Shown here piece after piece: positions 6,317 through 62,250 of a stretch of 64,000 nucleotides of DNA. Numbering within the stretch: the stretch's first letter is position 1; the number at the start of each line of letters is the position of its first letter. A program made the translations under genes and the position numbers. This DNA is from Rhabdophis nuchalis (taxonomy: Eukaryota; Chordata; Lepidosauria; Squamata; Natricidae). The stretch covers positions 102,501,375-102,565,374 of the forward strand of contig CM077644.1 in assembly GCA_039707465.1 (NCBI GenBank). The letters run 5' to 3'. Under the pieces are notes generated by a model. That model was not told the origin of the DNA. It ran no database searches and saw only the letters and a program-made list of their open reading frames with translations.

Positions 6317-6667
6317 TAAGGTAAAGGTTCCCCTTGCACATATGTGCTAGTTGTTTCCGACTCTAGGGGGCAGTGCTCATTTCCGTTTCAAAGCCGAAGA
6401 GCCAGTGCTGTCCAAAGACATCTATGTGGTCATGTGGCCGGCATGACTAAACAGCGAAGGCGCATGGAATGCTGTTACCTTCCCACCGAAGGTGGTTCTT
6501 ATTTTTCTACTTGCATTTTTACATGCTTTTGAACTGCTAGGTTGGCAGAAGCTGGGACTGGTAACTGGAGCTTTTAATCTGTTACGCAGCACTAGGGATT
6601 CGAACCATCAAACTGCTGACCTTTCTGATCAGCAAGCTCTGTGTCTTAACCACTAAGCCATCACATC
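6317..6667 (-). mobile_element. Sauria-type tRNA SINE
   Basis: About 350 bp on the minus strand. The tRNA-like head has box A around 6645-6660 (TGGCTTAGTGGTTAAG) and a perfect box B GGTTCGAATCC at 6596-6606. The 3' end reads ACCTTTACC-like, compatible with the Bov-B-derived tail of squamate Sauria SINEs. Body blocks such as 'catgtggccggcatgac' are widely shared among squamates in my recollection. Pol III-transcribed when active; this copy shows moderate decay. Confidence 0.8.
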
Positions 6668-11298: not shown

Positions 11299-13583
<2,285 letters not shown>

Positions 13584-16374: not shown

Positions 16375-19300
16375 TCAGTTGGCGGGGCGGTGTCGGGTCC
16401 GCCCTGACCGCCTTAGTTCTTGAGGAGGCTCCTCCCTGTGGGACACGGAGCCTTCGCCTACGTCATCGCGGCCTGCCCTCGGAGGTGGAGTTGCCGTAGG
16501 CGGCAATGGCGACCCTAGCAAGTCCGGGTGAGGGGGCGTGGCGACCGGGCTTGAGGTAGTTGGCATTTGCTGGCGAGTATTATTCTGGTAGGGTGGTTCC
16601 CCGATGGGCGAGGCCCCCAGCTGAGAGTCAGATTGGGCTGTGAGGTCCTGGCGGTCTCCCCGTGCTGTTCCCGCCGATACGAGGTCTGGACCGGCTAGGG
16701 ACTCCGGGGTTCCAAACAACTGCTCGGCTTGAGCAGAGAACAATGGCCCAACGGGGGCCAACGGGCAGGAACGGCCTGGCGTGGTGACTGCTGTTTCGGG
16801 CAGGCGGCGCCTCAGTTGATCCAGGTGGCGCCGCCACTCGGATCCATCCTGAAGGCCGACTCTGTAAGAACAGGGTCCGGTTACGTCCAAAATGGTTGCG
16901 GCAATCCATCGCGGCTCCCCTGAAAAGTTCCTTGCCCAAACCAGGTCCCCAATTTCAAATAAACGAGGAGTGGGAATCTGCAGGTTGCCCCTCTGCAACC
17001 CGTCGTAATCGGGGTGCAGTCTGTCCAGAGTGGTCCGCAAGCGTCGGCCCATCAAGAGCTCCGCGGGGCTTTTCCCTGTGGCTGGGCAAGGTGTGACATG
17101 CTGTCCCAAAAGGTACGCGGCCACCCTTGCCTGCCAGTCCCCTTTATCCAAACGGGCCAAGGCTTCCTTGGCTGAGCGCACGGCTCGTTCCGCGCGTCCA
17201 TTAGACGCCGGGTGATAAGGGGCGACTGGCGCGTGGCGGATCCCTTGGGTGGCCAGAAAGTCCAAGAAGGTGGAGGATTGAAATTGGGGTCCGTTGTCGG
17301 ACACAACGACGTCCGGCAACCCGTGGGTCGCGAACAGACGGCGCAAGGCACGCACCGTGCTCTCCGCTGTGGTGGAAGCCATGAGAATCACCTCCACCCA
17401 GCGTGAGAACGCATCCACCACCACGAGGAAATTCTGGCCATGGAAGGGACCCGCGAAATCCAAGTGGAGCCTGGACTATGGGCACCTGGGGGCGTCCCAC
17501 TCCCTCGGCGGGGAGACCGGCAGGGCCGGCCGGGACGATTGGCAGGAGGAGCAGGCGGCCACCCATTCCGCCACTTCAGCGTCCATGCCGGGCCACCAGA
17601 CATAGCTCCGGGCCAATGCCTTCATACGGACGATGCCTGGGTGGTTGGCATGGAGCGACTGAAGAACCATGTGCCGGAGAGGGGAAGGGACGATGACCCG
17701 ATCTCCCCAACACAAGCACCCACAATGGAGCGAGAGCTCCAGCTGGCGTGACTTGTAAGGCCGAAAGTTTTCAGCCACACTGCCCGAAGGCCAGCCCCTC
17801 AGCACCCATCGGCAGACCTGGGCGAGGACGGGGTCTGCGCGGGTGTGAGCGGCAACGGCGGAAGAGGACAGGGGCAAGTCCGACTCCGCGACCATCAGGA
17901 CAGAGAGAGCAGGCACAGGGGCCGGATCCGGCCCCGGGAGAGGGCAGCGGCTTAGGGCATCAGCATGCCCTATCTGCTTGCCAGGACGGTATAGCAGCGT
18001 ATAGTCATACGCTGCCAGGAATTCCGTCCAGCGGGTCATCCTGGGCGACAGGATGGGGGGTGTCGGACGGTCACCGGCCAATAGCCCAAGGAGCGGCTTA
18101 TGGTCCGTGACAACAGAAAAGGTCCGCCCATAGAGGTAATTGTGGAACTTCTTAATCCCGGACACTACAGCCAAAGCCTCCTTGTCGATTTGGCTGTAGT
18201 TTCTCTCCGTTTGAGACATTGTCCGGGAGTAAAAAGCAATGGGGGCTTCCGAGCCGTCTGGAAAGACGTGGCTAAGGACAGCCCCCAGGCCAAAAGGGGA
18301 GGCATCGCACGCAAGCGTCAGAGGAAGCCTGTCATGGTACTGGACTAGTACCGCATCTGACGTGAGCATGGCTTTGACAGCCGCGAACGCGTGTGCTTCG
18401 CGGCTGCCCCAGTGCCAGGCCGCGGATCGGTCGAGCAACCGATGCAGCGGCTCGGCTAGCGATGCCTTATGGGGAATAAACGACGCGTAGAAATTCAAAA
18501 GGCCGAGGAATGCCTGCAGCTCCGTTTTGGAGGCAGGAGTGGGGGCCTTTTGGATGGCCTCGACCTTGGAGGGGGTTGGGTGAATTCCTTGGGCGTCAAT
18601 CATGAAACCCAGGAATTCCACCCTAGGCGCAGCAAACGTACATTTGCTGCGTTTCAACTTTAAACCCGCGCCCCTGAAAACTCTGAGGACCTTCCGTAAC
18701 GTTTTGGCGAGTTCTGATATGCTGGAAGCAGCAATCAGGACGTCGTCAAAATACGGTACAACGCCAGGGAGCCCATGGAGCAGTCGCTCCATGAGGCTCT
18801 GGAAGATCCCCGGGGCTACGGACACGCCGAATTGGAGACGGCGACAGCGGAAAGCCCCACGGTGGGTCACGATGGTCTGCGCTTCCGCAGCCTCGTCATC
18901 CACCGGGAGCTGTTGGTAGGCCTGCGCCATATCCAGTTTCACGAACACTCGACCTCGTCCCAATGAGTGGAGTAGGTCTTGCACCACCGGAACCGGGTAT
19001 GGGTTCGCCTGAAGCCCGAGGTTGATCGTCGACTTATAGTCGGCGCAGATCCTCACGGACCCGTCGGGCTTAATGGGGACCACAATTGGGGTCTCCCATT
19101 TCGCCTGATCGACGGGTTCGAGCACGCCCTGCGCCACCAATCGATCCAATTCCGCTTCAACCTTGGGCTTCAGCGCGAACGGCAGCCTGTGGGCCTTCAA
19201 GCGGACTGGAGCAACCTGGGGGTCCAAATTTAGGGAAACTGGAGTGCCTTTGTATGTTCCTAAGCTGCCATCAAAGACGTCGTTGAACTCTCTGATTACT

Positions 19301-20604
19301 TCGTCTACCGGAGAACTGGCTGGCACGCTGTGTACTCCTTGGACTGACAGTCCCAAGGCTGGAAACCAGTCCAATCCGATCAAGGCAGCTAGGGGTTTGG
19401 CCACTACCAGGATGGGAAGGGATCCGTGGAAGGGGCCGTAGTCTACTCTCACTCTGTGCAGACCTAGAATGGGAATTTGTGAGCCCTGGTAATCTTTCAG
19501 GATCGTCGCTGTGAGGCCGAGATCCCGCTTCCTGAGCTTGGGGCAAAGCTTAACTAAATGCGCCCAGGACATGAGTGATCTAGAGGACCCTGAATCTATT
19601 TCCATTTTTACCCCCACCCCCTCTAAGCAAACCACTATTGACAGTCTCCTACTCTCTGCCTGGTCGTAGCTTAGAGCTGGGGGCATCTCCGCCAGCACGA
19701 AGCAGTCGGTCGGCTGTGGCTGGTAGCGTCCTGAACACTTCTGCGACCCTCGTTGTCCTGGTGGAACGGTTCTGGAGGCGGCAGCTGGCGTTGTCACTGG
19801 AGTGGCAGCACGGCACACAGCTGCTAGGTGTCCTTTCCTGCCACATCTGCGGCACACCGATGCCTTGAATGGGCACTCTGGTCTCTGGTGGGCCCCTCCG
19901 CAGCCTAGGCAGTTCCCGGACTTCTGCTGCGGTGTGAATGCGCGATTCAGCACGCGCCCGGTCACCCTCATGCAGTCCCCACGGTCTTCCTCCTCCAGCT
20001 CATCCAGTGGCGCTATTTCGTCTACCAGACACGCTCGTGGAGTGGGGAAAAGAGGAGGGCGCGCGCGGCCCATGTCGGATGTGGAGATCTCCGACAATTC
20101 TGTCGCGCGTGCTTCTTCCACCGCTTGCTCGAGAGTCAGGACAGTTTTTGAAAGCAAGCGGCGCTTTAGGCGGATGTCTCTTACGCCGCATACAAACTGC
20201 TCCAGTAGGGATTCCTCCAGGAAGCCAGCAGGGAACTCGCAGGGGATTGCGGTCGCTCTCAATTTCTGCAGGAACTCGGCTACCGACTGTTGCGGCTGTT
20301 GCACACATTGCCTGAATGCATAGCGATGCGCTATGCGGGAAGGCGCCGGCGCGTAGTGTGCTCTCAGGCGGCCCAGGAGATCGTCCCACGGCACTTCGTG
20401 CACCGCTGCGGGTGCTGCTATGGTTCGGGCGGTAGCAAACAATTCAGGGCCGCCGCACTGGAGGAATAGGCTCAGCTTCCTGGCAGGCGCGAGTTCGCCG
20501 TAGTCGCTGGCTATCAAGAAGCACTCGAACCGGGCTAAGAAGGAAGCCCATTGTTCCTTCATCGGGTCGAACGGTGCAAACGGAGGCATTGTCGCCGTAG
20601 CCAT
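16375..20604 (-). pseudogene. Gypsy gag-pol polyprotein with one in-frame stop
   Basis: Single frame from ATG at 20604 to a stop at 16375 (~1,409 codons), interrupted by one amber codon at 17476-17478. Order: mag-type Gag (residues ~10-170); two zinc knuckles, CX2CX3HX4C at 232-244 and CX2CX4HX4C at 251-264; protease DSGS at 337-340; RT with KLDMAQAY around 556 and YFDD at 618-621; RNase H with CDAS (766), DKEA (807) and DHKPL (834); integrase HHCC zinc region near 970-1010; then, after the stop, the DDE core (MDFAGPF, SDNGPQF, GRAERA) and a proline-rich C-terminus ending RSGRTRHRPAN. Acts in cytoplasmic particles and nuclear integration. The stop separates the integrase zinc domain from its core, so this copy is probably not autonomous. 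The frame continues unchanged after it, with no other damage seen. Confidence 0.95.
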
Positions 20605-29345: not shown

Positions 29346-29573
29346 CCTACCTACCTACTGTATTTCTTCCTCTCTATCCCTCTACCTACCTACCTACCTA
29401 CCTACCTACCTACCTACCTACCTACCTACCTACTGTATTTCTACCTTTCTCCCTCTACCTACCTACCTACCTACCTACCTACCTACCTACCTACCTACTG
29501 TATTTCTCCCTCTCTATCTATCCACCTACCTACCTACCTACCTACCTACCTACCTACCTACCTACCTACTGTT
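29346..29573. repeat. (CTAC)n array in three blocks
   Basis: Three CTAC/ACCT arrays separated by near-identical 'tgtatttctnnctttct'-type spacers. The long plus-strand frame of repeated TYLP is a microsatellite translation. Confidence 0.93.
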
Positions 29574-29618
29574 AGAATTTTTTAATCCCAGTAGAAGGAG
29601 TATGGCCAGCTGAAGTAT

Positions 29619-29665
29619 GGCCAGCTGAAGAAGGCTAATAAGCCTGAAATGGATCCATCCTGGTC
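29619..29665 (+). ncRNA. Hammerhead ribozyme A1 (type I)
   Basis: Helix I GGCCAG / CTGGTC (six pairs, one G-U), core CTGAAGA, helix II AGGCT-AATA-AGCCT (five pairs), GAAA, helix III ATGG-AT-CCAT (four pairs including A15.1-U16.1), C17 at 29659. All conserved core nucleotides fit CUGANGA/GAAA/UH. Cleavage is predicted after 29659. A 15-bp duplication (29601-29615 repeated at 29616-29630) supplies a second, incomplete copy of the 5' strand and core. Confidence 0.9.
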
Positions 29666-29876
29666 TCTTTATTTTCAGCCCTTAAAAAATTCTAACACAT
29701 ATCTAAAAAATGTCACACAGCAGTAATCTAATTTGGTTCTCTGTCTGGATGACTCTGGGTTGAGTCGAAGGGCAGAGAGGGATGTCGTTGAGTCTCCTCC
29801 CCTTAAAGGGACCTCTTCACAGGAGCTGTGATAATTATTCTTCATTTAAGAGTCCTGTAAATTGGCTGATATATCA

Positions 29877-29947
29877 GGGATACCAGATAGCTCAAGGCAT
29901 AGAGAGCTTGCCTCAAATGCTGGAAAGCCCTGGTTCAAATCCCAGTA
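29877..29947 (+). promoter_or_regulatory. tRNA-like Pol III promoter of family A unit
   Basis: Box A-like TAGCTCAAGGCATAGAG at 29888-29904 and box B GGTTCAAATCC at 29932-29942, spacing 27 nt. Weak similarity to tRNA-Ala by eye. It ends 10 nt before helix I of ribozyme A2. Confidence 0.7.
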
Positions 29948-29957
29948 GAAGGAGTAT

Positions 29958-30004
29958 GGCCAGCTGAAGAAGGCTAATAAGCCTGAAATGGATCCATCCT
30001 GGTC
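29958..30004 (+). ncRNA. Hammerhead ribozyme A2 (type I)
   Basis: Same 47-nt sequence as A1. Cleavage predicted after 29998, so the A monomer between cleavage sites is 339 nt, within the size range reported for retrozyme circles. Confidence 0.92.
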
Positions 30005-30183
30005 TCTTTATTTTCAGCCCTTAAAAAATTCTAACACATATCTAAAAAATGTCACACAGCAGTAATCTAATTTGGTTCTCTGTCTGGATGACTCTGGGTT
30101 GAGTCAAAGGGCAGAGAGGGATGATGTTGAGTCTCCTCCCCTTAAAGGGACCTCTTCACAGGAGCTGTGATAATTATTCTTCA

Positions 30184-30205
30184 TATATATACATACATAC
30201 ATACA

Positions 30206-30254
<49 letters not shown>
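30184..30254. repeat. (ATAC)n(AT)n microsatellite
   Basis: ATAC then AT repeats at the junction between the family A array and the PLE 3' end. Possible original PLE target. Confidence 0.95.
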
Positions 30255-30338
30255 GTTTTCTGAGGTTTTCGCGGGTGTTTGTATGTAGGTCTTTGGTTGT
30301 TCGGGTTTTCTCCCGTGTAGAATTGGAAGTATCTTCAC

Positions 30339-30378
30339 GACGTTTCGATGAAATCTCATTCATCATCTTCAGGCTGGT
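30339..30378 (-). ncRNA. Hammerhead-like motif at PLE 3' end
   Basis: Minus strand: CTGAAGA (30372-30366), extra T, helix II GATGAA...TTCATC, GAAA (30346-30343), then ACGTC with a possible one-pair helix III. Matches the minimal hammerheads described for PLEs. Helix I is weak here and the extra base after the core is non-canonical. The PLE stop codon (TGA) overlaps the first core bases. Confidence 0.55.
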
Positions 30379-31904
30379 GCTTCCGGCTTGGTGCTTCCAG
30401 GAGCAATGTGAGATCTCAGCCGGTTCCTCTTTTTAACTGCCAGTGGGGGTGTGACCTGATTGGGTGGGAGCTTGGCTGCATTCTGATTGGGTGGAGGTGT
30501 GTTCTGATTGGTAGGGGGTTTGGCTGTGCTCTGATTGGATGGGAGTTTGGCTGTGCTCTTATTGGTTGGGGGCGTGTTCTGTTTGGGTGGGGACCTGGTT
30601 GTGCTTGTGTTAGTCTGAGTTGCAGAGGAATTTGACCTGGTGAGCTGCATTGCTGTTGTTTGGCTTCGCGTTTGTGGTCGTACCACATCTCTGTGGTGAG
30701 CATCAGTTTGCTTCATGTATGGATTGGAGGGGTTTAAAGTGGCTAATAATGCAGCTTTGGTCTGGCTTCTGGTTTGTGGTCGGGCTTCTGATTTGTGGTC
30801 ATCATCGGTGTGGGTTTGGGTTTGCTTTTTGCATGGATGTGTGATAGTGACATCCTGTGTGGTTTTCGTGAGTGTGGGTCTGGTATCATTCTTTGTGTTA
30901 GGGACTCGTTTGTCAGTGAGGGCAGGTTTCCAAATGGCTGGTAGGCGGGAGGTATCATCTCGTTTATTCATGCTGTGTGGCCGCTTTTCTATCTCAATAG
31001 CTTCTCTGATTATTCTGTTGTTATAGTGTTCAATTTTGGCAATAGTTCTGGTCTTTTTAAAGTCTATATCATGTCCTGTGGCTTTGAAGTGTTGGACCAG
31101 GGAAGAAGTTGGTTCCTCCTTTCTGACTGAGTTTTTGTGTTCTTCAATGCGTGCCTTTATTCTTCTGTTGGTTTGTCCAATGTATGTGGTGGGGCAGGTG
31201 GTGCATGGGATTTCATATACTCCTTGATTTTCTAACTCTATTTTCTCTTTGGGGTTTCCTAGGATGGTGGATATTTTTCGGTTTGTGTAGAATGCTGTCT
31301 TGATGTTGTGTTTGTGGAGGATCTTGCTGATTCTGTCTGTGGTGCCTTTTATGTATGGGAGGAGGGCTTTGCCGTTTTCTTGTTCACTGTCTTTGGCTTT
31401 AGTGGGGTTTTCTTTTTGGATTAGGTTAGTGATCTTGTTTCTTTGGAATCCGTTGGATGTTAGTACGTTGGTGAGAGTGTGTAGTTCGGTTTTTAGGTGT
31501 TGTTCGTCGGCTAAGCGTTTTGTTCTGGAGATGAGTGTCTTGGCTACAGAGTTGATCTGTGCTGGGTGGTAGTGTGAGAGTGCATGCAAATAGCGGTTTG
31601 TGTGTGTTTTCTTCTGGTAGATGGTGTGTCCTAGGGATCCGTTGGATTTCTTATAGACTAAGACATCCAGGAAGGGGAGTTGGTTATTGGCTTCTGTTTC
31701 CATGGTGAACTGTATTTTGGGGTGTAGACTGTTGAGGTGTGTGAGGAAGTTGTCCAGTTTATCTTTTCCATGTGGCCAGATTATGAACGTGTCATCTACG
31801 TGTCTGAGCCAGAGTTTGGGTTTGTGATCTGATTTTTCTAGAGCTTGGGTTTCAAAGTGTTCCATGTAGAGGTTAGTAATGACAGGTGAGAGGGGTGATC
31901 CCAT
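30369..31904 (-). CDS. PLE reverse transcriptase / GIY-YIG endonuclease (partial ORF)
   Basis: Uninterrupted frame of 511 codons; the first in-frame ATG at 31904 is internal to the original RT. Residues 1-40 contain MGSPLSPV and the RT active site as LRHVDDTF (usual form YVDD, so His replaces Tyr). The GIY-YIG domain has GVY (228-230), a Cys pair CTTC (234-237), YIGQTNRRIKARIEEH (241-256), a His pair HFKATGH (272-278) and a candidate catalytic Glu in IREAIEIEK near 301-305. Residues ~335-495 are a Thr/Asn/Gln/Pro-rich tail built of near-repeats (RPQTRSQT twice, then NQ-T-PP units). Without the N-terminal RT the copy cannot be active, but the clean frame implies recent insertion. Confidence 0.9.
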   Translation of the reverse strand: MGSPLSPVITNLYMEHFETQALEKSDHKPKLWLRHVDDTFIIWPHGKDKLDNFLTHLNSLHPKIQFTMETEANNQLPFLDVLVYKKSNGSLGHTIYQKKTHTNRYLHALSHYHPAQINSVAKTLISRTKRLADEQHLKTELHTLTNVLTSNGFQRNKITNLIQKENPTKAKDSEQENGKALLPYIKGTTDRISKILHKHNIKTAFYTNRKISTILGNPKEKIELENQGVYEIPCTTCPTTYIGQTNRRIKARIEEHKNSVRKEEPTSSLVQHFKATGHDIDFKKTRTIAKIEHYNNRIIREAIEIEKRPHSMNKRDDTSRLPAIWKPALTDKRVPNTKNDTRPTLTKTTQDVTITHPCKKQTQTHTDDDHKSEARPQTRSQTKAALLATLNPSNPYMKQTDAHHRDVVRPQTRSQTTAMQLTRSNSSATQTNTSTTRSPPKQNTPPTNKSTAKLPSNQSTAKPPTNQNTPPPNQNAAKLPPNQVTPPLAVKKRNRLRSHIAPGSTKPEAPA

Positions 31905-31925
31905 GGGGTAATTTACTCTGGTTTG

Positions 31926-32097
31926 GGAAGCTCTGATTTTTGGGGATTGTGACCAGTTTTTCTGTATCCAAGCTAAGCCAGTGACTTAAAACCTTTGGAT
32001 TGTTTACTTCAATGTTGAAAGTTTCTATGGCAAAACATTCCTCAATAAAAAAAAAACACCCCAATAATCCATATATATATATAGATGGAGGAAAACA
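31926..32097. other. PLE 5' flank, unclassified
   Basis: Short sequence of unclear origin with poly(A) at 32047 and an AT repeat at 32072-32083. Minus-strand codons (SHWLSLDTEKLVTI) are in a different frame from the PLE; origin not determined. Confidence 0.3.
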
Positions 32098-32214
32098 GTA
32101 AGGGAAACAGTATGTCTCCTCCCTTTAATTGGGGCCTAATAATAACAGGTTGTTGTGAAACAATTACCTATACTAATATACCCTGTCTAAGCTGATGTAA
32201 TAGGGGAACTGGTT

Positions 32215-32269
32215 TGGCTTAAGTGTGAGGTTCCTCGCCTTGCATGCAACATAGCCCCGGTTCGAATCC
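32215..32269 (+). promoter_or_regulatory. tRNA-like Pol III promoter, family B unit 1
   Basis: Box A-like TGGCTTAAGTGTGAGG at 32215-32230 and perfect box B GGTTCGAATCC at 32259-32269. 'ccttgcatgc' between them resembles a tRNA-Ala(TGC) anticodon arm. The ribozyme starts 13 nt downstream. Confidence 0.75.
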
Positions 32270-32282
32270 CAGTAAGGGGTAT

Positions 32283-32329
32283 GGCCAGCTGATGAGAGCT
32301 AATAAGCTCGAAATAGATCTATCCTGGTC
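32283..32329 (+). ncRNA. Hammerhead ribozyme B1 (type I)
   Basis: Helix I GGCCAG / CTGGTC, core CTGATGA (the commonest form), helix II GAGCT-AATA-AGCTC, GAAA, helix III ATAG-AT-CTAT, C17 at 32323. All core bases canonical. Relative to family A, helices II and III keep pairing through paired substitutions. Confidence 0.94.
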
Positions 32330-32560
32330 TCTTCTAATTTAATTTATTGATCAGCTCATAAAACTAACACACACATATCTAAAATATTATACAACGTAAT
32401 TCTTGGCTTGCTGTTTGGATGGTCTCTAGCGATGAGCCGATGAGCAGTAAGGGAAACAGTACGTCTCCTCCCTTTAATTGGGGCCTAATAACAGGTTGTT
32501 GTGAAACAATTACCTATACTAATATACCCTGTCTAAGCTGATGTAATAGGGGAACTGGTT

Positions 32561-32615
32561 TGGCTTAAGTGTGAGGTTCCTCGCCTTGCATGCAACATAG
32601 CCCCGGTTCGAATCC
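32561..32615 (+). promoter_or_regulatory. tRNA-like Pol III promoter, family B unit 2
   Basis: Box A-like at 32561-32576 and box B GGTTCGAATCC at 32605-32615, same as unit 1. Confidence 0.75.
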
Positions 32616-32628
32616 CAGTAAGGGGTAT

Positions 32629-32675
32629 GGCCAGCTGATGAGAGCTAATAAGCTCGAAATAGATCTATCCTGGTC
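32629..32675 (+). ncRNA. Hammerhead ribozyme B2 (type I)
   Basis: Identical 47 nt to B1. Cleavage predicted after 32669, giving a 346-nt monomer from B1 to B2. Confidence 0.94.
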
Positions 32676-32709
32676 TCTTCTAATTTAATTTATTGATCAG
32701 CTCATAAAA

Positions 32710-32712
32710 CTA

Positions 32713-32751
<39 letters not shown>

Positions 32752-32752
32752 A
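32710..32752. repeat. (CA)n(TA)n microsatellite
   Basis: Separates the direct family B array from the inverted copy. Confidence 0.93.
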
Positions 32753-33052
32753 TTGTTTCTCAACAACCTGTTATTAGGCCCCAATTAAGGGAGGAGACAT
32801 ACTGTTTCCTTTTCTGCCTTTCGACTCATCACCAGAGATCATCTAGACAGCAAGCCAGGAATTACGTTGTGTGATTTTTTAGATATGTGTGTTAGTTTTA
32901 TGACCTGATCAATAAATTAAATTAGAGAGAGACCAGGATAGATCTATTTCGAGCTTATTAGCTCTCATCAGCTGGCCATACTCCTTACTGGGATTCGAAC
33001 TGGGGCTATGTTGCATGCTAAGCAAGTAGCCTAGCACTTTTAGCCAAGCCGG
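32753..33052 (-). mobile_element. Hammerhead-bearing tRNA retroelement, family B inverted copy
   Basis: Minus-strand, nearly one full unit, more diverged in the body than B1/B2 ('gacctgatcaataaatt', 'gagtcgaaagg'). The tRNA-like head is present with box B decayed to AGTTCGAATCC (32991-33001). It forms a long inverted repeat with unit B2 around the CA/TA spacer, so read-through RNA could fold into a ~300-bp hairpin. Confidence 0.88.
32931..32977 (-). ncRNA. Hammerhead ribozyme B3 (type I, inverted)
   Basis: Minus strand reads the same 47-nt ribozyme as B1/B2, fully conserved although the surrounding body and box B have diverged. Confidence 0.93.
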
Positions 33053-33059
33053 TTATATA

Positions 33060-48902: not shown

Positions 48903-49584
48903 TCTGTGATAATAAAATGGCACCTTTGTATCATTCTTATTTCTATGCAATTAAACCCACCACTTTCTATTTAATAGCTTCTTATTAGTTTTCAAAAATA
49001 AAAAGGTAATTTACAAAGTTCCACAAAAGGAAAAATAGGGAAAGGGGACAACAGGGAAAGTTTAAAAAGTGACACATTCATGAAATGCTATGAAAAAGTT
49101 ACTTCCAACTGCCTTCAATACAAGTACAAATGTTGTATATATAAAACACTCGCTTGTTTCAGTTAACAAAAAGCAGATACAAAACTAAGTAGTCATTTTT
49201 AAAAAAATATTTCATTAAAGGAGTCAATTTTGCCATTTCTGCCAGAACCACTGCTTGCTATTAAGAGTCACATTACATATTAAGAGGCACTCATGTGACT
49301 GCCAAGAAAATTGAAGCTTCATTACATTCTTTGTTGTATTTAGCAAAAATTACTCTTTGCTCAACCTCAGTGTCTGCTGGTAGAGGGAAGAGGTGGGGAA
49401 ACTCTACCTATTATGACATCACTACACAAGATAAAATCTTCAGCCATTATCAAAAGGTAAAATGAGCTTGGAATGTGACTGCACTTTTTGACAATGGAAC
49501 CATATTTCTTCAGTACTTTGGCCACAATAAATTTTTCATACAGCTATTTAGTTCTACAAAAACACACACGTACACACACATATC
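48903..49584. other. Unannotated AT-rich stretch
   Basis: Nothing recognised. Confidence 0.4.
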
Positions 49585-52500
49585 AGGTTATGGGAGGGCG
49601 CACCCGTTGTTTGCTAGCGGTTGTGCTCTCCGGTCCCCAGGGCTCTTCTCGCACTCCAGGAGGTTCGGGATCACAGGGCCTGGGCCCTAGGCTGATGCTA
49701 TGTAACACCAGGTCCGTGGTCAACAAAGCCCCCCTCATCCATGATTTGGTGTTGGAGGGGGAGCCGGACCTGGTGGGTATTACGGAGACCTGGTTGGGCC
49801 ATGAGGGGGGAGTACCTCTCGTGGAAATGTGCCTACCAGGTTACCAGGCATTCCATCAGCCACGGGCCCAGGGTCGGGGTGGAGGGGTGGCGGTTATTAT
49901 AAAGAATAGTCTTGATCCGAGGGAGACCGCTGTGCCACAGACAGCTGGTGGTGAGTCCCTGTGTGTGAAGTGGGGCCCTGGGAGGCAGCTGGGCTTGCTG
50001 ATTCTGTACCTGGCTCCCCGCTACGTATCAGCAGCCCTGCCCGAGCTTCTCGATGTGATAGCTGAGGTGGTGGTTGATACCCCCAGGCTGTTAGTCATGG
50101 GGGATTTCAACCTGCCATCGATAGGCAAAACATCCGAGATGGCCCGGGAGTTCATGGCTTCCATGACAGCCATGGACCTCACCCAACTAATTCATGACCC
50201 TACTCCACTGGTGGACACACGCTGGACTTAGTTTTTGTCTCCGGCCAGTGGACGAATGATCTTGGATTAGGGGAATTAGTCATCACACCCCTGTCATGGA
50301 CAGATCATTCTTTCCTCCGGCTTGACTTCCCAACTGCTACACCCCACCGCGGGGAGGCGGAACCAGAGATATCGAGATGGTTCCGCCCCAGGCACCTGAT
50401 GGACCCGGAGAGGTTCCAGATGGAGCTTGGGCCAATACCTGAGACCCTGACCTGCGACTCGACTGAGGACCTAGTGGCTGCCTGGAATAATGTGGCCATG
50501 GGGGCCCTGGATCAGGTCGTGCCCTTGCGGCCTCTCACTCGGTGCCGATCTACCTTGGCTCCTTGGTTTTCTGAGGAGCTGAGGGTGATGAAGCGCCAAA
50601 AGAGATACCTAGAGAGCATTTGGAGGTCCACTCGCTCCGAATCCAACTGAACACGGGTACGGTCGCATTTGCGGACCTACCTCGTGGCGATAAGAGCGGA
50701 AAAACATAACTATCTCTCCGCTCTTATCGCATCCGCAGATAACTGCCCCGCCGCCCTGTTTAGAGTGACCCACTCCCTCCTTCAACAGAGGCTGCGGGAA
50801 GCTCCGTTGCAGGGTGGTGCAGAGGAATTTGGTTGTTATCTGCAGGATAAAATCGCTCAGATCCGGGACGAACTGGCCTCCAACGAGGTTAGTCCGGGCA
50901 GGCAGGTGGAGGCAGGTCTTGAGACCGTTTTTTGGGAAGAGTTCGACCTTGTGACTCCTGATGACATGGACAGGACGCTGGGGCGGCTGAATGCTACCAC
51001 ATGTTTATTGGACCCGTGTCCCTCCTGGCTGGTACTGGCCTCCTGGGAGGTTACATGAGGCTGGCTCCAGGAAATAGTGAACGCTTCCTTGAGTGAGGGG
51101 TTTCTACCATCCGTCTTGAAAGAGGCGGTGGTGAGACCCCTCCTCAGGAAGTCTGGACCCAGCGGTGTTGGCTAATTATCGTCCGGTCTCCAACCTTCAC
51201 TTCCTTGTGAAGGTTGTTGAGAGTGTGGTGGCACAACAGCTCCCCCAGCACCTGGAGGAAACTGTCTATCTAGACCCGCGCCAGTCCAGCTTCCGACCTG
51301 GGTACAGCATAGAGACAGCATTGGTCGCGTTGGTAGATGATCACTGGAGGGCTCGGGACAGAGGTTATTCCTCTGTCCTGGTCCTATTAGACCTCTCAGC
51401 ATCTTATTGCATCGGCTGGAGGGGTTGGGGGTGGGAGGCACCGTTTTGCGGTGGTTCTCCTCCTACCTCTCCGACCGGTCGCAATTTCTGTTGGCAGGAG
51501 GGCAGAGGTCGACGTCAAGGCCCCTCACATGTGGGGTGCCTCAGGGGTCGGTCCTCTCCCCCCTCCTGTTCAATATCTATATGAAGCCGCTGGGTGAGAT
51601 CATCCGTGGTTTTGGGGTAGAGTTCCATCAGTATGCTGATGATATTCAGCTGTACATCTCTACCCCTGATCACCCCAACGATGCTGTTGAAGTGATGTCC
51701 TGGTGTCTGGAGGCCGTGCGGGTCTGGATGGGGAGGAACAAGACTGAGTGGCTGTGGTTTCCGGCGTCACGATATAGCCAGCTGGTTCCATCTCTGGCTA
51801 TCGGGGGTGAGTCATTAGCCCCCGCAGAAAGGGCCCGCAACTTGGGCGTCCTTCTGGATTCTTGGCCTTGGATGACCATGTGACGGCCGTGGCCAGGGGG
51901 ACTTTTTATCAAGTTTACCTGATACGCCAGTTGCACCCCTTTCTAGATCATGACGCCCTACACACGGTCACTCAAGCCCTCGTCATTTCCCGCCTGGACT
52001 ACTGTAATGCTCTCTACATGGGGCTCCCCTTGAGGTGCACCCAGAGGCTCCAGCTAGTACAGAATGCAGCCGCGCGGGGGATTTTGGGAGTCTCAAGATA
52101 CTCCCATATAACACCTCTCCTGCGCGAGCTGCACTGGCTGCCTGTGGCCTTCCGGGTGCGCTTCAAGGTGTTAGTAACCATCTTCAAAGCGCTCCATGGC
52201 ATGGGTCCTGGTTACCTGCGGGACCGCCTCCTACCACATACCTCCCTTTGACCTGTCCGCTCCCACAGAGAGGGCCTCCTCAGGGTGCCGTCGGCCGGAC
52301 AATGCCAGCTGGCGACCCCCAGGGGGAGAGCCTTCTCCATGGCAGGCCCCGCCCTCTGGAACGACCTGCCCCCCACCCTCCGCACTATCACGGACCTGCG
52401 CTTCTTCCGCTGGGCACTAAAAACACACCTATTTTATGTGGCCGGCCTGGCATAGTTTTAACAGTATATTTTTAACGGTATATTTTTAACTTAGTGATTT

Positions 52501-62016: not shown

Positions 62017-62250
62017 GAGCAATAGCAATAGCACTTACATACCACTTCACAGTGCTTTGCAGCCTTCTCTAAGTGGTTTATCTAGTCAGCATTTTGCCCC
62101 CAACATTCTGGGTCCTCCATTTCCGACCTTGGAAGGATGGAAGGCAGAGATAACCTTGAAGCAGTCAGGATCGAACTGCTAAAGTCAGTAATGAGTTAGC
62201 CTGCAGTACTGCATTCAAACCACTGTGCCACCACGGCTACTTCTCTCCAT
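62017..62250 (-). mobile_element. tRNA-derived SINE (same family as 58724)
   Basis: Tail AGCAATAGCAATAGC at the left, 'cacagtgctttgcagcc', 'tttgcccccaacattctggg', and the tRNA-like head reversed with 'aaccactgtgcca' at 62218-62230. Confidence 0.8.

Follow-up and report, generated by a model that had tools for sequence, protein, structure and literature searches.

The locus analysed here lies in the genome of the squamate Rhabdophis nuchalis, within a window of 64 kb (C2:102501375-102565374 of the 1.918-Gb assembly; guanine-cytosine (GC) content 0.407), where two short arrays of a hammerhead-bearing, retrozyme-like repeat, termed A and B, flank a truncated Penelope-like element. Five hammerhead motifs of 47 nucleotides (nt) are located exactly where a preliminary description of this DNA had placed them, and a scan of the window for the full hammerhead recovers these five and no others, as against no match in 200 first-order Markov versions of the window. 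As also proposed there, the predicted cleavage sites are separated by 339 nt in family A and 346 nt in family B, and the units are non-coding, with the longest stop-free stretch across three joined units reaching 67 (A) and 52 (B) amino acids. The retrozyme unit contains no open reading frame (ORF) for the reverse transcriptase (RT) or GIY-YIG domains that are the hallmark of Penelope-like elements. With a GC content of 0.431 (A) and 0.416 (B), the units correspond to metazoan retrozymes as these have been delimited, namely tandem, non-coding repeats of ~170-400 base pairs (bp) with less than 50% GC. The units run head to tail, as had been claimed. The first A copy is cut off inside its head, and the start of its ribozyme bears a 15-nt duplication. 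Unit numbering starts at the first base 3' of the predicted cleavage site, hammerhead positions carry their customary numbers, and S1 and S2 denote the two 3' end sites of the arrays that are described further below. The features of the locus are as follows (window coordinates, strand):

29570..29585 (-), inverted piece of unit A (positions 23-38) at the 5' end of array A, 16 nt (16/16 match, E 0.017, weak alone)
29584..30187 (+), array A, with a partial first unit, one full 339-nt unit and a last unit to position 189 (S2)
29599..29630 (+), tandem duplication of 15 nt where hammerhead A1 begins
29619..29665 (+), hammerhead A1 from the hammerhead scan, predicted cut after 29659
29933..29941 (+), box B of the tRNA-like head of unit A (unit position 274), without a strict box A
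29958..30004 (+), hammerhead A2 from the hammerhead scan, predicted cut after 29998
30257..31904 (-), 5'-truncated Penelope-like element between the arrays (far end provisional), its 3' end facing array A, with ORF 31904-30369, whose product carries the end of an RT domain and, after it, GIY-YIG
32096..32721 (+), array B, beginning in a partial unit at position 122 and continuing through one full 346-nt unit to a last piece that ends at position 52 (S1)
32215..32268 (+), unit B1, tRNA-like head from box A to box B
32283..32329 (+), hammerhead B1 from the hammerhead scan, predicted cut after 32323
32561..32614 (+), unit B2, tRNA-like head from box A to box B
32629..32675 (+), hammerhead B2 from the hammerhead scan, predicted cut after 32669
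32736..33054 (-), inverted copy (87-89% identity to unit B) that begins at unit position 230 and ends at 203 (S2)
32931..32977 (-), hammerhead of the inverted copy, identical to that of B, predicted cut between 32937 and 32936

The 16-nt inverted piece at array A might be read as the very short second arm of a head-to-head twin, an arrangement that recurs elsewhere in the genome.

Both families are found genome-wide. Searches with unit B, scoring the best 40 of 2163 first-look candidates, yield at least 200 matches, spread over the window and 39 further places, and those with unit A, scoring the best 40 of 1621, yield at least 185 matches at 40 places including the window; the counts of places are lower bounds because 40 candidates were scored per search. 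Full units are mostly 97-99% identical in either family, with two A units at 93-94%. Between loci, full B units differ on average at 4.0 of 348 columns (3046 pairs), compared with 2.45 within one arm (91 pairs; median 1 versus 4 between loci) and 0.3 between opposite arms (23 pairs from three loci). By sequence comparison the family is young, and the element is a metazoan-type retrozyme, being ~340 nt long, non-coding, tandem, scattered over many contigs and recent in origin. These scattered young copies, together with the covarying ribozyme, lend support to the earlier proposal of a retrozyme-like retroelement. Old and young pieces also occur in clusters of mixed orientation at three of the fetched loci (L053:1516-2840, L071:1038-4291 and L048:18-2904), which look as though arrays were attracting further insertions into their own AT-rich tails.

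The ribozyme is the part of the unit under the clearest constraint. In all five window copies the core, a 6-bp helix I, a 5-bp helix II and C17 are intact, in line with the preliminary description, whereas helix III departs from the ordinary 4-bp stem that it had assumed. The two A hammerheads are identical to each other, as are the two B hammerheads and that of the inverted copy. A and B differ at 7 of 47 positions, one of which is the free position 7, while the other six represent three base pairs changed on both sides; of 3,000,000 random seven-change variants, 491 retain the core and the pairs. A larger sample comprises 193 instances from the window and 47 fetched loci (L001-L008, L039-L077), of which 181 were kept for covariation and 12, with a 5' arm that is not recognisable, were left out. 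The core and all 16 pairs are intact in 139 of these 181. Among the twelve variants seen at least twice, five pairs exhibit changes on both sides (C-G/U-A and G-C/A-U in helix I, two pairs in helix II and A-U/G-C in helix III) versus none in six slid controls, and all 50 distinct hammerhead sequences give seven doubly changed pairs compared with two or three in the slid controls.

The hammerhead is also the best conserved long segment in all three comparisons among real units of A, B and D, the last from L006. Identity between A and D is 35/47 in the hammerhead, 94/188 in the body and 35/71 in the head, and between B and D it is 43/47, 129/185 and 41/69, respectively. Conservation of the ribozyme relative to the rest of the unit had been set in advance as a check, and the A-B comparison bears it out: the two families agree at 39/47 hammerhead positions, compared with 97/188 for the body and 45/71 for the head. 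Taken at the level of sequence, the hammerhead motif is conserved, covarying and under selection, and it is predicted to cut its own RNA.

At curated cut-offs, Rfam returns no match within the window. With E up to 10, Hammerhead_HH9 is matched by the three B-type window copies, which score 33.5-33.7 bits against a cut-off of 52 bits (E 7e-6 to 9e-6); neither A copy gives any match. Some other genomic copies exceed the Hammerhead_1 cut-off. HH9 (RF02275), an intronic amniote hammerhead, is thus the best Rfam match of the B-type ribozymes, below its curated cut-off, and is an isolated conserved motif, unlike the repeat family described here. For amniote hammerheads, a retroelement origin has been proposed (PMC6155905). 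Exact hammerhead patterns have no matches in viral contigs and none in bacterial and archaeal genome contigs, which fits the expectation for an animal element. We note an isolated hammerhead-like motif at L001:1501-1543 (G000:C4:77436078-77436120) that scores 38.1 bits with Hammerhead_1, above the cut-off, lies outside units of this family and seems to carry A in place of the expected G12. The same G12 to A change is seen in the core of some units, at L048 (1746-2092, -), at L076 (1697-2043, -) and in the upstream flanks of the L039 and L073 arms, where it would be expected to block cutting at that unit junction.

Helix III, including the A15.1-U16.1 pair, forms a perfect, loop-less 10-nt palindrome. 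Folding it as a hairpin, with 3 bp around GAUC, brings no gain in predicted energy (-11.3 with and without it in A; -9.4 with and -11.1 without it in B), and the two-strand hammerhead is the minimum-energy structure of the cofold, at -39.2 (A) and -35.0 (B). The palindrome around GATC is present in all of the repeated variants bar one, which contains a C-A mismatch. In axolotl, ribozymes whose helix III is short and whose loop is palindromic are reported to be inefficient cutters as monomers and to improve on dimerisation (PMC7229834), and because of this precedent we predict dimer-favoured cutting here; according to the folding models and this analogy, the retrozyme hammerhead would most likely cut as a dimer.

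Upstream of the ribozyme lies a tRNA-like head, for which the preliminary description had proposed a tRNA-type promoter with box A and box B placed 10-13 nt before the hammerhead. With box B and strict box A defined as GWTCRANNC and TRGYNNARNNG, which we take to be the consensuses, box B is perfect in both families, whereas a strict box A is confined to the two B units of the window and is found neither in unit A nor in the inverted copy, and the commonest distance of box B is 14 nt. Among 150 intact hammerheads, 129 have box B within 45 nt upstream, and 97, mostly B-type, have a strict box A beyond it. In the window, two box A-box B pairs precede hammerheads, where 0.7 would be expected anywhere in it, and neither ARAGORN nor Rfam at E up to 10 calls a tRNA in the window. 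Because box B is general and strict box A is not, transcription by RNA polymerase III (Pol III) from the tRNA-like head appears plausible. Unit A contains one Pol III terminator (TTTT) and 74 of 80 B-type units contain none, a lack that is uninformative because 36% of B shuffles likewise have no TTTT. Copies do not start at the Pol III start, with 2 of 56 5' ends falling at unit positions 222-240 and the rest spread. Two further box A-box B pairs, typical of tRNA-headed short interspersed nuclear elements (SINEs) and free of hammerheads, are present at 6597-6660 (-) and 62168-62230 (-) of the window.

The ends of the arrays follow a distinct pattern. Among the 56 B arms that measure 100 nt or more, drawn from 39 loci with shorter arms excluded, 25 end 3' at unit positions 44-70 (S1) and 23 at 190-206 (S2), together 48/56, with eight ending elsewhere; the 5' ends are spread, only two and two falling within the S1 and S2 stretches. 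S1 is located in ACACACATAT and S2 after CAATTAC, and neither coincides with the cleavage site or with the start of the tRNA-like head. All 21 S2-type last B pieces keep the unit to approximately position 190, after which the sequence A(TA)n follows in 18. The body of A is 52% identical to that of B, yet its arms end at the same sites: among the matches listed, 31/31 A 3' ends lie at one of the two, nine at S1 and 22 at S2, 17 of the latter at precisely 189, with 34 further A arms having no end piece among these matches. This count excludes 11 listed rows (eight at 74-88% identity and, beyond an array on C2, three fragments with at least 94%), and because it covers listed matches, it underestimates for family A how many short last pieces lie at S1 and how many first pieces are short. 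The window conforms to this pattern, array A ending at 189, array B at S1 and the inverted copy at S2. Head-to-head twins with their 3' ends outward are observed at 13/39 B loci and 21/40 A loci, with gaps of -10 to 78 nt between the arms. In addition, a TA/CA/TG run of at least 8 nt is present within 40 nt of 39/55 3' flanks, compared with 10/56 5' flanks and 6% of 5000 controls.

Array ends, twins and AT-rich targets of this kind resemble published insertions of Penelope-like elements. In Adineta, Penelope copies are arranged head to head with an optional 3' tail (PMC3846280), and the anole Penelope-like element (Poseidon) is reported to cut AT-rich DNA, to extend both strands and to start inside its RNA at an AC-rich stem loop, with two start sites bounding the tail (PMC11167929). 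The retrozyme thus shares with these elements head-to-head copies, two internal 3' end sites and AT-rich targets, and differs from them in lacking RT and endonuclease, in its ~340-nt unit and in its full-size rather than minimal hammerhead. We suggest that it behaves as a non-autonomous passenger of a Penelope-like element and is not itself one.

Such an element resides between the two arrays. ORF 31904-30369 (-) belongs to a Penelope-like element, an assignment made by sequence comparison because it combines the end of an RT domain with GIY-YIG and has relatives in snakes and lizards. Its closest matches are snake and lizard proteins, which fits a squamate host; those named near the top include Ahaetulla (88% over 61%) and Vipera (84% over 37%) among snakes, and Podarcis (68% over 82%) and Phrynocephalus (66% over 62%) among lizards. 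The segment at 30339..30372 (-) resembles the minimal hammerhead of Penelope-like elements, a resemblance read from the sequence without a formal match, and Rfam at E up to 10 returns no match there. The 3' 304 nt of the element are 99-100% identical in 40/40 scored copies (the best 40 of 1261 first-look candidates), and the local element appears young on this comparison. Penelope-like copies are themselves placed head to head at L054, L069 and L074, with ends near 271-279 and at 304. Because the arrays resemble Penelope insertions in their ends, twins and targets, we infer by analogy that a Penelope-like enzyme likely copies the retrozyme.

The nearest known counterparts are the metazoan non-LTR (long terminal repeat) retrozymes of Cervera and de la Pena 2020 (PMC7229834), notably axolotl HHR_Amex1/2 and the newt satellite, which likewise consist of non-coding, tandem 330-350-nt units of low GC in two families, carry a type I hammerhead with a short helix III and a palindromic loop, and share their genome with Penelope-like elements. 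Precedents are therefore not limited to plants and invertebrates, as had been supposed in the preliminary description, and since amphibians already possess retrozymes the present element is not a new kind. It differs from the amphibian ones in its squamate host, its 10-nt helix III palindrome and its tRNA-like head, and it has Penelope-like insertion ends, a feature for which we found no description in the available text of PMC7229834. Animal retrozymes are reported there to make abundant small RNA circles, whereas the present family is known from DNA sequence; the reinserting enzyme was left open, with Penelope-like elements named as a strong candidate from co-occurrence, hammerheads and tandem copies (PMC7229834). 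The schistosome Sm-alpha and Sj-alpha elements are likewise SINE-like, with a tRNA-like part, a hammerhead and a high copy number (PMC2770079), but have a flatworm host.

We consider it probable that this element is a retrozyme with a hammerhead predicted to cut its own RNA, most likely as a dimer, and that its arrays record reverse transcription of processed, probably circular RNA by the resident Penelope-like element. A further-reaching scheme, which we advance tentatively and would rate a little short of even, is that a living reptile retrozyme makes ribozyme-cut monomeric and dimeric circles, that these are copied by the Penelope-like enzyme through rolling-circle, target-primed reverse transcription from both ends of a chromosome break at once, giving mirror-image multi-unit arrays, and that its lineage may be related to the one from which the domesticated amniote hammerheads arose. 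In the reading that we consider probable, multi-unit RNA would be transcribed, perhaps by Pol III from the tRNA-like head; cutting would follow once two ribozymes had paired via their palindromic helix III, and monomers or dimers would then be closed into circles by an RNA ligase of the host. The Penelope-like enzyme would then open AT-rich DNA and start copying inside the RNA at S1 or S2, as the observed ends suggest, and copying would run round the circle for one to several units before stopping at varied places. The other DNA end would also be primed and the two cDNAs joined 5' end to 5' end, as the twins suggest. The arms reach 8.6 units and span at least one unit in 45/56 cases and at least two in 23/56. 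At L044, four successive units show strict X-Y-X-Y alternation at three linked sites, which is what copying a dimeric circle twice would give and provides a hint in that direction. A further hint is that 5 of 56 arms have their 5' end no more than 2 nt from the cleavage site, where 0.65 would be expected, although such ends would also fit run-off on linear cut RNA. RNA circles are, on the sequences, only hinted at.

Several observations weigh against this interpretation. The S1 and S2 windows were picked post hoc, after inspection of the data, and the pairing of S1 with S2 in twins is weak, at 9/13 or, counting L061 (next piece ending at 68) as S1, 10/13 (P 0.044, post hoc). Twin arms are less divergent from each other than from other loci in 10/13 cases, yet the two averages are practically the same (0.0134 and 0.0136) and the mean within arms, taken without weighting (0.0140, 44 arms), is no lower, so the twin arms do not clearly appear to be copies of one molecule. 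The search for target-site duplications gave one clear short flanking repeat, an 8-nt candidate at L070, in a setting where microsatellite flanks would mask such repeats. For the window ORF, the RT (E 0.0016) and GIY-YIG (E 0.0038) matches are both below Pfam cut-offs, and the Penelope-like matches at 17/39 B loci (13 with matches of at least 95%) were counted without a background rate. Of the five 5' ends close to the cleavage site, one (L045) is rearranged. Units are heterogeneous at L073, the longest arm, where X is always followed by Y in a less regular order, and mixed at L039.

Linear multi-unit RNA could indeed yield identical arrays. A Penelope-like enzyme might copy uncut linear transcripts of existing arrays, the ribozyme merely trimming RNA and a circle being unneeded, and the anole element does insert cleavage-dead RNA in vitro, without need of hammerhead cleavage (PMC11167929). 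Several-unit arrays exist as a source of such transcripts, and the heterogeneous L073 and L039 arms fit a linear template; the multi-unit origin of the arrays and the status of the ribozyme as the best conserved part would, however, go unexplained, and the strict alternation at L044 would need an alternating source. We regard this alternative as unlikely.

It is more doubtful still that the repeat is an ordinary tRNA-headed SINE copied by a long interspersed nuclear element (LINE), with the hammerhead as a passenger and the twins produced by twin priming, even though the box B and box A frequencies given above (129/150 and 97/150) speak for it, LINE pieces are present in the window and LINE twin priming also gives head-to-head pieces. 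With LINE twin priming, one arm begins at the 3' tail and the second at variable positions, whereas here both twin arms end at the same two internal sites; moreover, copies do not start at the head, most arms are at least one unit long and the ribozyme is under selection. A LINE origin was judged here from the end pattern, and this scope is a reservation on the Penelope-like reading. To satellite DNA spread by unequal crossing-over we assign almost no probability: tandem head-to-tail units are what it would produce, but it would not account for ~80 short arrays scattered over separate places, for 3' ends that cluster while 5' ends are spread, or for mirror-image twins, and for the sampled loci this end pattern refutes it.

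Elsewhere in the window, ORFs resembling those of LTR retrotransposons (RT, RNase H and integrase domains) are located in GC-rich DNA at 16375-20604 (-), a broken LINE with endonuclease and RT pieces lies at 49488-52475 (+), and a long (TAGA)n array with a higher-order period of 136-144 nt spans 11299-13583.

A search of titles and abstracts in the open-licence PubMed Central literature returned no report of reptile retrozymes. As far as that literature goes, three features are new: the squamate host, the presence of a tRNA-like head in a retrozyme of a vertebrate and, most importantly, an insertion pattern of the Penelope type. The element likely extends retrozymes from amphibians to a squamate. 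Its insertion sites resemble Penelope-like ones and a young Penelope-like element resides in the same genome, so that the question of the mobilising enzyme becomes testable with one protein and one ~340-nt RNA. If the proposed interpretation is true, this would be a retrozyme whose mobilising enzyme is readable from its insertion sites.

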